Part shown: in pieces, positions 33,365 through 37,552 of the stretch
How positions within the stretch are numbered: position 1 is the first letter of the stretch
Layout of the letters: each line of letters opens with the position of its first letter
Origin: Betaproteobacteria bacterium
GTDB lineage: Bacteria; Pseudomonadota; Gammaproteobacteria; Burkholderiales; Burkholderiaceae_C
Assembly: GCA_013289985.1 (NCBI GenBank)
Contig: JABCYW010000047.1
Location: 1 to 39,631 of the forward strand
Direction: 5' to 3'
DNA: 39,631 bases
Position numbers and translations under genes: made by a program
The notes under the pieces: generated by a model
Database searches by the model: none
The model's input: the letters and a program-made list of their open reading frames with translations, nothing else
What the model was told of the DNA's origin: nothing

Positions 33365-33664
33365 ATGCCCCTGTCACCCGAAGACGTCAGCCGCATCGCG
33401 CACCTCGCGCGACTGGAGCTGTCGCCCGCCGAGGGTTCTGCGATGCAGACCCAGTTGAACGATTTCTTCAAGATCGTCGAGCAGATGAGCGCCGTCGACA
33501 CCTCCGGCCTCGAGCCGCTGCACACCCCGTTGTCGGCCATCGGCAATGTCGAGCTGCGCCTGCGGCCCGACGCCGTCACGGAAACGAACAATCGCGAGGC
33601 CAACATGGCCAACGCGCCGGCCTCCGAAGAGGGCCTGTTCCTGGTTCCGAAGGTGATCGAATGA
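33365..33664 (+). CDS. gatC: Asp-tRNA(Asn)/Glu-tRNA(Gln) amidotransferase subunit C
   Basis: A 99-residue GatC, the small belt-like subunit that stabilises the GatA-GatB complex. Family features: [20 protein letters not shown], the central [18 protein letters not shown] with the conserved D-T-x-x-(V/L)-xPL region, and a C terminus ending in [13 protein letters not shown] 33365 gives the family N terminus; the frame upstream is non-family. Its stop overlaps the gatA start as ATGA (33661-33664). It heads gatC-gatA-methyltransferase-gatB. Confidence 0.97.
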
Positions 33665-35145
33665 GCGCCCAACTGCATACGCTCGGCGTGGCCGAGCTGG
33701 GCCGCGCGCTCGCGGCGAAGTCCACCTCCAGCGTCGAGGCCACGCAGGCCCTGCTCGCGCGCGCCAAGGCCGACACCCACGGCGCGTTCCTGGTCGTCGA
33801 CGAAGACGCCGCGCTGGCGGCAGCGAAGGCCGCCGACGCGAAGCGCGGATCCGGCGACGCGCACCCGCTGCTGGGCGTGCCCATCGCGCACAAGGACATC
33901 TTCGTCACGCAGGAGTCCGCCACCACGGCCGGCTCGAAGATGCTGGAGGGATACCGGAGCCCGTTCGACGCCACCGTCGTGGCGCGCCTGAAGGCCGCGG
34001 GCGCGGTGTCGCTGGGCAAGCTCAACTGCGACGAGTTCGCGATGGGCTCGGCCAACGAGAACTCGGCCTACGGCCCGGTGCGCAACCCCTGGGACGCCAC
34101 GCGCGTGCCGGGCGGCTCGTCCGGCGGCTCCGCGGCCGCCGTCGCGGCGCAGCTCGTGCCCGCCGCCACCGGCACCGACACCGGCGGCTCGATCCGCCAG
34201 CCCGCCAGCTTCACCGGCGTCACCGGCATCAAGCCCACCTACGGCGTGTGCTCGCGCTTCGGCATGATCGCGTTCGCCTCCAGCCTCGACCAGGCCGGCC
34301 CGCTCGCGCGTTCGGCCGAGGACTGCGCGCTGCTGCTGTCGGCGATGAGCGGCTTCGACGAGCGCGACGCCACCAGCGTGCAGAGGCCCCCGCAGGACTT
34401 CCACGCGCAGATGCTTCAGGCACGCGCCGGCGCCACCGCGGCGCAGCCGCTCAAGGGCCTGCGCATCGGCCTGCCGAAGGAGTTCTTCCCCGCCGCGCTG
34501 GCCGCCGACGTGAGCGGCCGCGTGCGTGCGGCGCTCACCGAGATGGAGAAGCTGGGCGCCACGCTGGTGGACGTCTCGCTGCCGCGCACCGAGCTGTCGA
34601 TCCCCGTGTACTACATCATCGCGCCGGCCGAGGCGAGCTCGAACCTGAGCCGCTTCGACGGCGTGCGCTACGGCCATCGCGCCGCGCAGTACGGCGACCT
34701 GATGGACATGTACAAGAAGTCGCGCTCCGAGGCCTTCGGCCCCGAGGTGAAGCGGCGGATCATGATCGGCACCTACGTGCTCTCGCACGGCTACTACGAC
34801 GCCTACTACCTGCAGGCGCAGAAGCTGCGCCGCATGATCGCCGACGACTTCCAGGCCTGCTTCCAGCAATGCGACCTGATCGCCGGCCCGGTGGCGCCGA
34901 CGGTGGCGTGGAAGCTCGGCGAGCAGGGCGACGACCCGGTCAAGGCCTACCTCGCCGACATCTTCACCCTGCCCGGCTCGCTGGCCGGCCTGCCCGGCAT
35001 GAGCGTGCCCGCGGGTCTCGGCGAGGGCGGCATGCCGGTGGGCCTGCAGCTGCTGGGCAACTACTTCGCCGAGGGCACGCTGCTGCACGCGGCGCACGCG
35101 CTGCAGCTCGCGACGGATTTCCACCTGCAGCGACCCCGCGCCTGA
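33661..35145 (+). CDS. gatA: Asp-tRNA(Asn)/Glu-tRNA(Gln) amidotransferase subunit A
   Basis: A 494-residue amidase-signature enzyme that releases ammonia from glutamine, or asparagine, to amidate Glu-tRNA(Gln) and Asp-tRNA(Asn). The Ser-cisSer-Lys triad is visible: K78 (PIAHKDIF), S153 (PGGSSGGSA) and S177 ([12 protein letters not shown]), matching the positions in the family. Length is normal and all conserved segments are intact. It overlaps gatC by four bases. Its TGA (35143-35145) shares its last base with the ATG of the next gene, which is a DNA methyltransferase rather than gatB. Confidence 0.98.
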
Positions 35146-36101
35146 TGAACGCACGCGTCGACCACCTCCCCTTCGCCACCCCGGTGCGCGGCGGCGTGGT
35201 CGCGGGCGATTGCCTCGCGGTGCTGCGCACGCTGCCGGCGCAACGCGTCGACCTCATCGTCACGTCGCCGCCCTACGCCGACCAGCGCGCCTCCACCTAC
35301 GGCGGCGTGAGCGCGGACGATTACGTCGCGTGGTTCATGCCGCGCGCCGAGCAGTTCGCCCGCGTGCTCAAGCCCACCGGCTCGCTGGTGATCAACATCA
35401 AGGAAAAGGTGGTGGACGGCGAGCGCCACACCTACGTCCTCGAGCTGATCATCGCGATGCGCAAGCAGGGCTGGCTGTGGACGGAGGAGTACGTCTGGCA
35501 CAAGCGCAACTGCTTTCCCGGCAAGTGGCCCAACCGTTTCCGCGACGCGTGGGAGCGCTGCCTGCACTTCACCCGCGAACGCCGGTTCAAGATGAACCAG
35601 GACGCCGTGATGGTGCCCATGGGCGACTGGGCGAACACGCGCCTGAAGACGCTCGGCGCCAACGACGTGGTGCGCCACGACTCGCGCGTGGGCAACGCGT
35701 TCGGCAAGAACATCGCCAACTGGCAGGGCCGCGACCGCGCCTATCCCACCAACGTGCTGCACCTGGCCACCGAATGCGGCAACAAGGGCCACAGCGCGGC
35801 ATTCCCGCAGGCCTTGCCGCGCTGGTTCATCGAACTCTTCACCGACCCGGGCGACACCGTGCTGGACCCGTTCGCCGGCTCCGGCACCACGCTGGCCGCG
35901 GCGCTGGAACTCGGCCGCAACGCGATCGGCGTGGAGCTCGCGTCCGCGTACGTGGCGCGCGCCCGTGACGCGGTCGCGACCGCGCGCGAGGCCGCGCAGG
36001 CGCTGGCGCGCGCGCGCGTGGTCACCGAACAAGAACTCATTTTCCCGCGTCGCGGCGCGACCGCTTCGCCCCAAATTCCCAAGGACAACGTCCCATCATG
36101 A
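35145..36101 (+). CDS. Beta-class DNA methyltransferase inside the gatCAB operon
   Basis: A 318-residue AdoMet-dependent amino-methyltransferase. Catalytic motif IV comes first (DLIVTSPPY, residues 36-44), then a target-recognition region (about 115-215), then motif X and the AdoMet-binding motif I near the C terminus ([20 protein letters not shown], 238-257), followed by GVELASAY. This IV-TRD-X-I order is the beta class. TSPPY is most often seen in N4-cytosine enzymes, though some N6-adenine enzymes have it. No restriction gene is adjacent, so it looks like a solitary methyltransferase. Its ATG shares the A of the gatA TGA, and its own TGA overlaps the gatB ATG (36098-36101), so it should be translated with the Gat subunits. 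The C-terminal 40 residues are Ala/Arg-rich. The target sequence is unknown. Confidence 0.92.
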
Positions 36102-37552
36102 GCACCCTCATTCGCGGCTACGAAGTCGTGATCGGCTTCGAGACCCACACGCAGCTGTCGACGGCCAGCAAGATCTTCTCGGGCGCCTCCACCGAGTTCG
36201 GCGCGCAGCCCAACACGCAGGCCTCGGCCGTGGACCTGGCGCTGCCCGGCACGCTGCCCGTGCTCAACCGCGGTGCGGTCGAACGCGCCATCCGCCTGGG
36301 CCTGGCGGTCAACGCCACCATCGCGCCGCTGTCGATCTTCGCGCGCAAGAACTACTTCTACCCCGACCTGCCCAAGGGCTACCAGATCAGCCAGTACGAG
36401 ATCCCGGTGGTGCAGGGCGGCATCGTGCCGTTCATGCACAAGGGCGAGATGCGCCAGCTGCGCCTGACGCGCGCCCATCTCGAGGAAGACGCGGGCAAGT
36501 CGGTCCACGAGGGCCACGCCAACATGTCGGGCATCGACCTGAACCGCGCCGGCACGCCGCTGCTGGAGATCGTCACCGAGCCCGACATGCGCTCGTCCAC
36601 CGAGGCCGTGGACTACGCCAAGGCGCTGCACGCGCTGGTGCAGTGGCTGGACATCTGCGACGGCAACATGCAGGAAGGCTCGTTCCGCTGCGACGCCAAC
36701 GTGTCGGTGCGCCGGCCCGGCCAGCCCTTCGGCACGCGCCGCGAGATCAAGAACCTCAACAGCTTCCGCCACCTGCAGCAGGCGATCGACTACGAGATCA
36801 ACTGGCAGATCGACGAGCTGGAGGACGGCCGCGCCATCGTGCAGGCCACCGTGCTGTTCGACCCGGACACCGGCGAGACCCGCATGATGCGCACCAAGGA
36901 AGACGCGCAGGACTACCGCTACTTCCCCGATCCCGACCTGCCGCCGCTGGTGATCTCGCGCGAATGGGTGGAGCAGGTGCGCGGCCAGATGCCCGAGCTG
37001 CCGCGCGCGATGGCCGAGCGCTTCCAGGCCGCCGACGGCCTGGCGCCAGCCGATGCCGCATCGATGACGCAGTCGCTCGCGACGGCCCGCTACTACGAGG
37101 CCGCGCGCGACGCCGGCGCGCCGGCCAAGCTGGTGGCCAACTGGGTGATGGGCGAGCTCTCGCGCCGCCTCAACGCCGAGGACCTCTCGATCGTCGAGGC
37201 CCCGGTCGATGCGGCGCTGCTGGCGGCGCTGATCAGGCGCATCCAGGACGGCACGATCTCCAACAACGCGGCCAGGCAGGTGTTCGACGCGCTGTGGACA
37301 CGCGAGAAGGGCACGGCCGGCAACGTCGACGAGACGATCGACAGGCTCGACGTTCGCCAGAGCAATGACACCAGCGAGCTGGAGTCCATCATCGACGCCG
37401 TGCTGGCCGCCAACCAGAAGTCGGTGGACGAGTTCCGCGCCGGCAAGGAGAAGGCGTTCCAGGCGCTGGTGGGCCAGGCGATGAAGGCCAGCAAGGGCAA
37501 GGCCAACCCGGCGCAGGTCAACGAGATGCTGAAGAAGAAGCTGGGCGTCTGA
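36098..37552 (+). CDS. gatB: Asp-tRNA(Asn)/Glu-tRNA(Gln) amidotransferase subunit B
   Basis: A 484-residue kinase-amidotransferase subunit that activates the tRNA-bound Glu or Asp by phosphorylation. The cradle domain starts [21 protein letters not shown], with [16 protein letters not shown] and the conserved [12 protein letters not shown]. The C-terminal helical and YqeY-like tRNA-binding region ends in [15 protein letters not shown]. Length matches the family. The ATG overlaps the methyltransferase stop as ATGA; AAGGA lies twelve bases upstream. Its TGA abuts the stop of the convergent AraC-type gene with no space for a terminator. Confidence 0.98.

Follow-up and report, generated by a model that had tools for sequence, protein, structure and literature searches.

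A solitary DNA methyltransferase gene lodged between gatA and gatB in a Burkholderiaceae genus, a probable remnant of a type II restriction-modification cassette

The window analysed here is a stretch of 39,631 nucleotides (contig JABCYW010000047.1 of assembly GCA_013289985.1) from a bacterium of the GTDB family Burkholderiaceae_C. Its positions 35145-36101 (+ strand) code for a 318 amino acids-long beta-class N4/N6 amino-methyltransferase (MTase) located between gatA and gatB. We conclude that this enzyme is very probably the solitary remnant of a type II restriction-modification (R-M) cassette, composed of an MTase and an EcoO109I/PmeII-type restriction endonuclease (REase), that lodged between the two gat genes. 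Three observations together lead to the assignment of a solitary MTase from a former R-M system: in relatives an REase gene lies beside the MTase, the pair occupies the same gat slot, and the genus of the window lacks the REase. Rather than arguing for a housekeeping function, the embedding of the gene in the operon is best explained by an R-M cassette that settled there and has since lost its nuclease.

A scan of named genomes yielded 118 stretches with relatives of the MTase, of which the best 80 (62–90% identity) were used. These loci and further genomes compose a comparison set of 98 rows in which duplicates are included and the window is counted twice. Identity to the window MTase ranges from 59 to 90% across the set, the window itself aside. 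The hosts are, by record title, Betaproteobacteria, Verrucomicrobia, Planctomycetes, Acidobacteria, Chloroflexi, Nitrospirae and others, many of them represented by metagenome-assembled genomes (MAGs). An REase match, in some cases a mere remnant, is found beside the MTase in 82 of the 98 rows: 26 have gatA and gatB as well, four have gatB, and 52 have no gat gene. Seven rows show neither gat genes nor an REase, while the nine with gat genes and no REase, duplicates included, all come from the genus of the window. The REases of the relatives are about 250 amino acids long and the three proteins tested match PF14511 (RE_EcoO109I) with 259–263 bits (cut-off 22.5). A profile built from eight of them reaches EcoO109I in the PDB with a whole-sequence E of 0.00045, no single stretch passing alone, and the copies found on plasmids carry the annotation “PmeII family type II restriction endonuclease”.

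In 31 of 87 non-redundant rows the MTase is adjoined by gatA and/or gatB. By title, these hosts include Thiomonas, Gallionella, Thiobacillus, Accumulibacter, Tepidimonas, Burkholderiaceae, Candidatus Glomeribacter and others. The commonest gene order is gatA-MTase-REase-gatB, many Betaproteobacteria having the pair precisely between the two gat genes. The REase stop codon is at most 26 bases from the estimated gatB start, or overlaps it, in 18 of the 23 gat loci measured; the distance is 134–648 bases in the remaining five (L040, L043, L044, L048, L068). In the window, MTase and gatB overlap by four bases (ATGA, 36098-36101, + strand) at the position where gat-embedded relatives hold the REase gene (about 0.75 kb). 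A variant arrangement is seen in two Candidatus Glomeribacter loci (L038, L044), in which the R-M pair adjoins gatB and no gatA match occurs in the loci read. In L038, rpsB/tsf/pyrH-like genes (named by eye) lie upstream in divergent orientation, and the pair is still followed by gatB.

The genus of the window comprises four genomes: that of the window (G000), L031 (G589), L033 (G139; Scleromatobacter humisilvae BS-T2-15) and L034 (G588). All four carry the MTase in gat and share its ATGA overlap with gatB, and none of the nine genus rows has an REase match. As the initial annotation had noticed, no restriction gene adjoins the MTase in the window. None lies between it and gatB. In a sample of 200 genomes of the family, PF14511 was found in eight, with 0 matches in G000 and G139, the two genus genomes of that sample. 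REase of this type is also absent from the window genome when searched with the L032 enzyme (best E 0.78; the assembly is in 210 contigs and a gap is possible). These results speak against a functional R-M system with its REase gene at another place in the genome. Such an arrangement is conceivable, as genes of one R-M system may be unlinked according to an excerpt of PMC3874152 and an REase from another family acting on the same site would have escaped the search, but we consider it highly improbable.

We propose that a deletion in the ancestor of the genus removed the REase gene and left the MTase whole, ending in the ATGA overlap with gatB. Intermediates of such a loss are found at gat loci of other lineages. 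In L081 (4001-4991) an in-frame chimaera, in which the MTase runs into the last 64 REase residues, terminates in an ATGA overlap with gatB; MTase and REase are both present in L085, a close relative. REase tails alone are left in L053 and L057, and REase pieces are spread over three frames in L045. In L005 (G152), a single uninterrupted open frame of 536 amino acids between gatA and gatB spans both MTase and REase. Fifteen of 84 scored rows were scored as lacking an intact REase (L003, L103 and L107 are unscored, and its integrity was not verified in every row classified as “not lost”); parsimony gives 11 changes of REase state, a count that does not define their direction. Solitary MTases from decayed R-M systems likewise have kept the MTase and lost the REase. 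Several orphan MTases adjoin degraded REase genes (Seshasayee et al., as cited in a passage of PMC6471742), and the same passage holds the change from R-M system to orphan MTase to be infrequent. The present case differs from them in that several stages of loss are found at one fixed operon site, with the coupling to gatB kept.

The solitary MTase is under purifying selection in the genus. The ratio of nonsynonymous to synonymous substitution rates (dN/dS, computed by a Nei-Gojobori script) is 0.12–0.22 among the three full-length orphans (window, L031, L033) and 0.28–0.32 when L034 is taken in; the genus values, L034 included, are 0.15–0.24 for gatA and 0.17–0.29 for gatB. Of 118 columns with a conservation of 95% or more across 69 other rows, 114 are kept by the window, 114 by L031 and 116 by L033, and 114 by the three all together. 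It is from these conserved residues that we predict the MTase to be still active.

Several points weigh against the loss of an REase followed by selective retention of the MTase. No REase trace is left at the MTase/gatB junction of the genus, and we infer the former presence of the REase there from relatives. The stem of the orphan clade is long, with 0.74 changes per column. The MTase of five sisters that are REase-bearing or unscored for REase state (L003, L032, L035, L036, L037) has a dN/dS of 0.02–0.13, with dS near saturation, and their own gatA has 0.25–0.36, well above their MTase; in the orphan genus, by contrast, constraint on the MTase does not exceed that on gatA. This contrast looks like a relaxed constraint after REase loss. 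Finally, the MTase of L034 lacks 30 codons in frame (residues 154–183 of the window protein), possibly by an assembly error since L034 is a single MAG. The 30-codon deletion, the long stem, the dN/dS above that of REase-bearing sisters and the REase decay in other lineages would be expected of a functionless relic that decays slowly and persists only because its deletion would disturb the gatA-gatB junction. We find this unlikely in view of the dN/dS of the three full-length copies and the number of conserved columns kept by the window.

A lone acquisition provides another alternative to REase loss: the MTase could have arrived already solitary, borne by a phage or plasmid, and entered the gatA-gatB junction with no REase ever accompanying it there. 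Homologues of that kind exist. L210 (CP026278.1), a 48.6-kb Klebsiella oxytoca plasmid with phage-type genes, codes for one that is 71% identical over residues 21–265, and Salmonella phage SE2 (L213, JQ007353.1) has one in two frames; no REase match was found in the 3-kb flanks of either. However, the orphan MTases fall in an 11-row group with support 100/99, of which 10 rows are gat-embedded and most bear an REase, and the slot is identical, so that a solitary arrival appears very unlikely to us. The base composition gives no sign of a recent arrival because the G+C content of the MTase gene (0.694) is close to that of the window (0.696). Its third-position G+C is 0.92, compared to 0.96–0.97 in gatA and gatB and 0.87 in gatC.

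The genes surrounding the MTase are gatC (33365-33664; PF02686), gatA (33661-35145; PF01425) and gatB (36098-37552; PF02934/PF02637), all on the + strand. Their equivalog models TIGR00135, TIGR00132 (561.9 bits for a cut-off of 481.1) and TIGR00133 were all passed, as was NF004014 for gatB, and the genes are in line, defining a GatCAB operon. gatC and gatA overlap by four bases (33661-33664, + strand), gatA and the MTase share one base in a stop/start overlap (TGATG, 35143-35147, + strand), and four bases are common to the MTase and gatB, so the embedding by overlaps of 4, 1 and 4 bases described in the initial annotation is confirmed by the coordinates. Sister species do not share the gatA/MTase overlap: within the genus this junction varies, with gaps of 7 bases in L031 and 13 bases in L033. 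Short gene overlaps are common in operons generally.

The MTase itself matches PF01555 with 149.1 bits (cut-off 26.7). TSPPY (residues 40–44; 35262-35276, + strand) precedes DPFAGSGT (residues 241–248; 35865-35888, + strand), which is the beta-class order of motifs; we take the former to be catalytic motif IV and the latter the S-adenosylmethionine (AdoMet)-binding motif I. The enzyme is thus intact and of the class first proposed. Its closest solved structure by sequence is M.PvuII (1boo; E 6e-27, residues 9–273), a beta-class N4-cytosine MTase that belongs to a different R-M system. The presence of TSPPY and the closeness to M.PvuII lead to the prediction that the modified base is N4-methylcytosine. 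No other match at E ≤ 0.001 was found when the own genome was searched with the window MTase.

From the position in an essential operon, the initial annotation had suggested a housekeeping, possibly epigenetic, role rather than one in defence. A housekeeping epigenetic enzyme comparable to CcrM and tied to the translation machinery would agree with the presence of the MTase in four of four genus genomes, with purifying selection and with the ATGA coupling to gatB in all of them. CcrM is also a solitary beta-class MTase but its similarity is weak, as the window MTase scores 79.5 bits with the CcrM model NF050803, below the cut-off of 830. The motif of CcrM is DPPY while the window has TSPPY. 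The housekeeping origin is further countered by the homologues, which are mostly beside an REase match and in relatives share the very gatA|gatB slot with it, and by the occurrence of the same pair in other operons and on mobilizable plasmids (see below). The relatives thus indicate an origin in defence. In the family sample an MTase homologue better than E 1e-100 is found in 6 of 200 genomes, the one of the window included, and the next best has E 3.6e-41; 194 of the 200 genomes are without a comparable homologue. Nine of 399 genomes of the order sample, again including that of the window, reach E 1e-60. Absence of the gene from the gat operons of most relatives, a finding that the initial annotation itself regarded as contrary to its proposal, is thus what was observed at the family level. 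The insertion is conserved in the gat neighbourhoods of the four genus genomes (one with the 30-codon deletion), but it is rare in the family. We therefore rate a housekeeping enzyme as quite unlikely; a regulatory role of the MTase is possible.

A gatB gene is present in all 40 relatives searched, and 30 of their loci were fetched, four from the genus of the window. An MTase match is absent from all 26 gat loci fetched outside the genus. The estimated gap between gatA and gatB is at most 98 bases in 22 of these, and the other four (L145, L148, L149, L151), from other families, have 232–762 bases of other DNA at this position. By eye, L145 has a frame for a putative exported protein there and L148 a GNAT-like one. 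The gatA-gatB junction seems permissive to inserts.

The history of the slot was approached with two trees. The MTase tree has the 87 non-redundant rows, after 11 near-duplicate or masked loci were dropped (L001, L002, L004, L094, L099, L101, L112, L114, L120, L121, L122), and is without plasmid and phage copies. A single clade of the 31 gat-adjacent MTases was ruled out (approximately unbiased test, p-AU 0.0013). Nine changes of context are needed, at least four of them forced by the starred branches. The gatA tree has 47 rows, 25 with R-M and 22 R-M-free; some gat loci were left out, including the four with partial gatA (L145, L148, L149, L151). The presence of R-M takes eight changes in this tree, at least six of them forced, and the genus of the window is nested among R-M-free relatives (support 99/91 and 99/96). 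Repeated entry at the gat slot and one old entry followed by many losses or exits both fit these data. Inspected by eye, the ends of gatA and gatB in the window have no excess similarity to R-M-bearing relatives that would indicate flank transfer.

The cassette was also found outside gat. In Betaproteobacteria it is inside leuS|lptE (L115–L118), nusB|thiL (L055, L061) and topB|DUF924 (L066, and also L050 on the upstream side, where the contig data end after the REase), while the trpD|trpC slot (L062, L064) holds an MTase without REase. Distances to the neighbours in these slots go from overlaps up to 39 bases. Looser or otherwise placed are L039 (66 and 189 bases), L006, L041, L046 and L119. 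Pfam identified a class I tRNA synthetase and LptE (L116, L118), Glycos_transf_3 and IGPS (L062), a topoisomerase and DUF924 (L066), NusB (L061) and AIRS (L055) among the neighbours; the names leuS, trpD, topB and thiL are our assignments, and for nusB|thiL one side per locus was Pfam-tested, in two loci. In 39 of 45 rows from Betaproteobacteria, a frame of 100 codons or more on the same strand ends within 60 bases of the MTase start; these rows are related and gat-heavy and so do not provide an independent count. The number is 39 of 46 with L119, which was left out of these rows and has no such neighbour, and L033 is scored as a miss though its gatA ends 13 bases upstream. Among rows from other phyla 9 of 40 have such a frame, and among distant control MTases 5 of 24. 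MTase starts were defined by alignment in test rows and by open frame in controls; the list of betaproteobacterial rows was established from titles, mreB/gat matches and kinship, and rows with fewer than 320 bases upstream were skipped.

Fifteen plasmid records match the MTase, 14 of them at 60–80% identity over about 73–78% of its length. Their hosts are enterobacteria and Aeromonas, and 11 records are typed as mobilizable. The MTase-REase pair is carried by 5.6-kb mobilizable plasmids, and REase matches were confirmed on all three short plasmids opened (L209, L211, L212). R-M genes in line within metabolic operons are described for the PabI family, and stated for other R-M systems too, in an excerpt of PMC4615327. 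The present insertions differ from that type by the operons concerned (gat, leuS, nusB, trp, topB) and by the many lineages found at one gatA|gatB slot. We tentatively suggest that the cassette squats in housekeeping operons of Betaproteobacteria, inserted between neighbouring genes of the same direction, and draws expression from genes that cannot be switched off, the overlaps or very short gaps of most slots leaving no room for an own promoter or regulator gene, and that in the genus of the window the MTase was co-opted for a role under selection in its own right; as a whole this joint reading is rather less than even in our estimate.

The site methylated by the former system was also addressed. 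The likeness to EcoO109I and PmeII resides in the REase of the relatives, while its partner here is an amino-MTase (PF01555) and the window is without REase. M.EcoO109I is a 5-methylcytosine enzyme. The PmeII activity is likewise 5-methylcytosine, with the motif GGWCC in Pseudomonas mendocina (as given in a portion of PMC8112702). The recognition site is not transferable to the amino-MTase studied here, and the long stem of the orphan clade makes a change of specificity possible. Avoidance was assessed by counting 1408 palindromic motifs. The pooled observed/expected ratio of GGWCC is 0.38 in 21 gat loci with R-M from Betaproteobacteria and 0.36 in seven non-gat ones. R-M-free DNA has higher values, 0.72 for 26 gat loci and 0.70 for 20-kb stretches, a contrast that at first sight favours GGWCC. 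However, the ratio is 0.59, 0.63 and 0.77 in 20-kb stretches with R-M, 0.65 in other phyla, and 0.52 and 0.58 in orphan genomes. Genome by genome (9 R-M-bearing and 14 R-M-free genomes or groups, a few stretches overlapping), GGWCC comes 538th among 1168 motifs (P 0.36); GGYSRCC comes first (P 0.0001) and GTCGAC 7th (P 0.002), both uncorrected. There is no stable avoidance signal for GGWCC or RGGNCCY, and GGWCC, GGYSRCC and GTCGAC were all rejected as evidence for the site.

The sequence of events that we favour would start with a cassette, MTase then REase, lodged between gatA and gatB, and continue with the deletion proposed above. The remaining MTase probably relies on the gat promoter for its transcription and on coupling for its translation, and it may still methylate the site of the old system. 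Selection would have kept it, and its likeliest uses are to guard host and imported DNA against R-M systems, plasmids or phages that share its specificity, with effects on gene expression as a possible further use. A solitary Dcm can attenuate killing after loss of the same-site EcoRII R-M system (PMC3874152, in part). A literature search through titles and beginnings of abstracts found no work on such R-M systems in gat, which does not prove that none exists.

In this reading, the puzzling methyltransferase of an essential operon marks a stage in the domestication of a defence system, and one genomic slot displays a series made of the intact pair, a fusion, tail remnants and a clean solitary enzyme. 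The finding of the same cassette inside leuS|lptE, nusB|thiL, trpD|trpC and topB|DUF924 was unexpected. The case of the window also calls for caution in deducing a housekeeping function from operon position. If the squatting in operons is true, R-M genes would be expressed without control circuits of their own and would be hard to delete.

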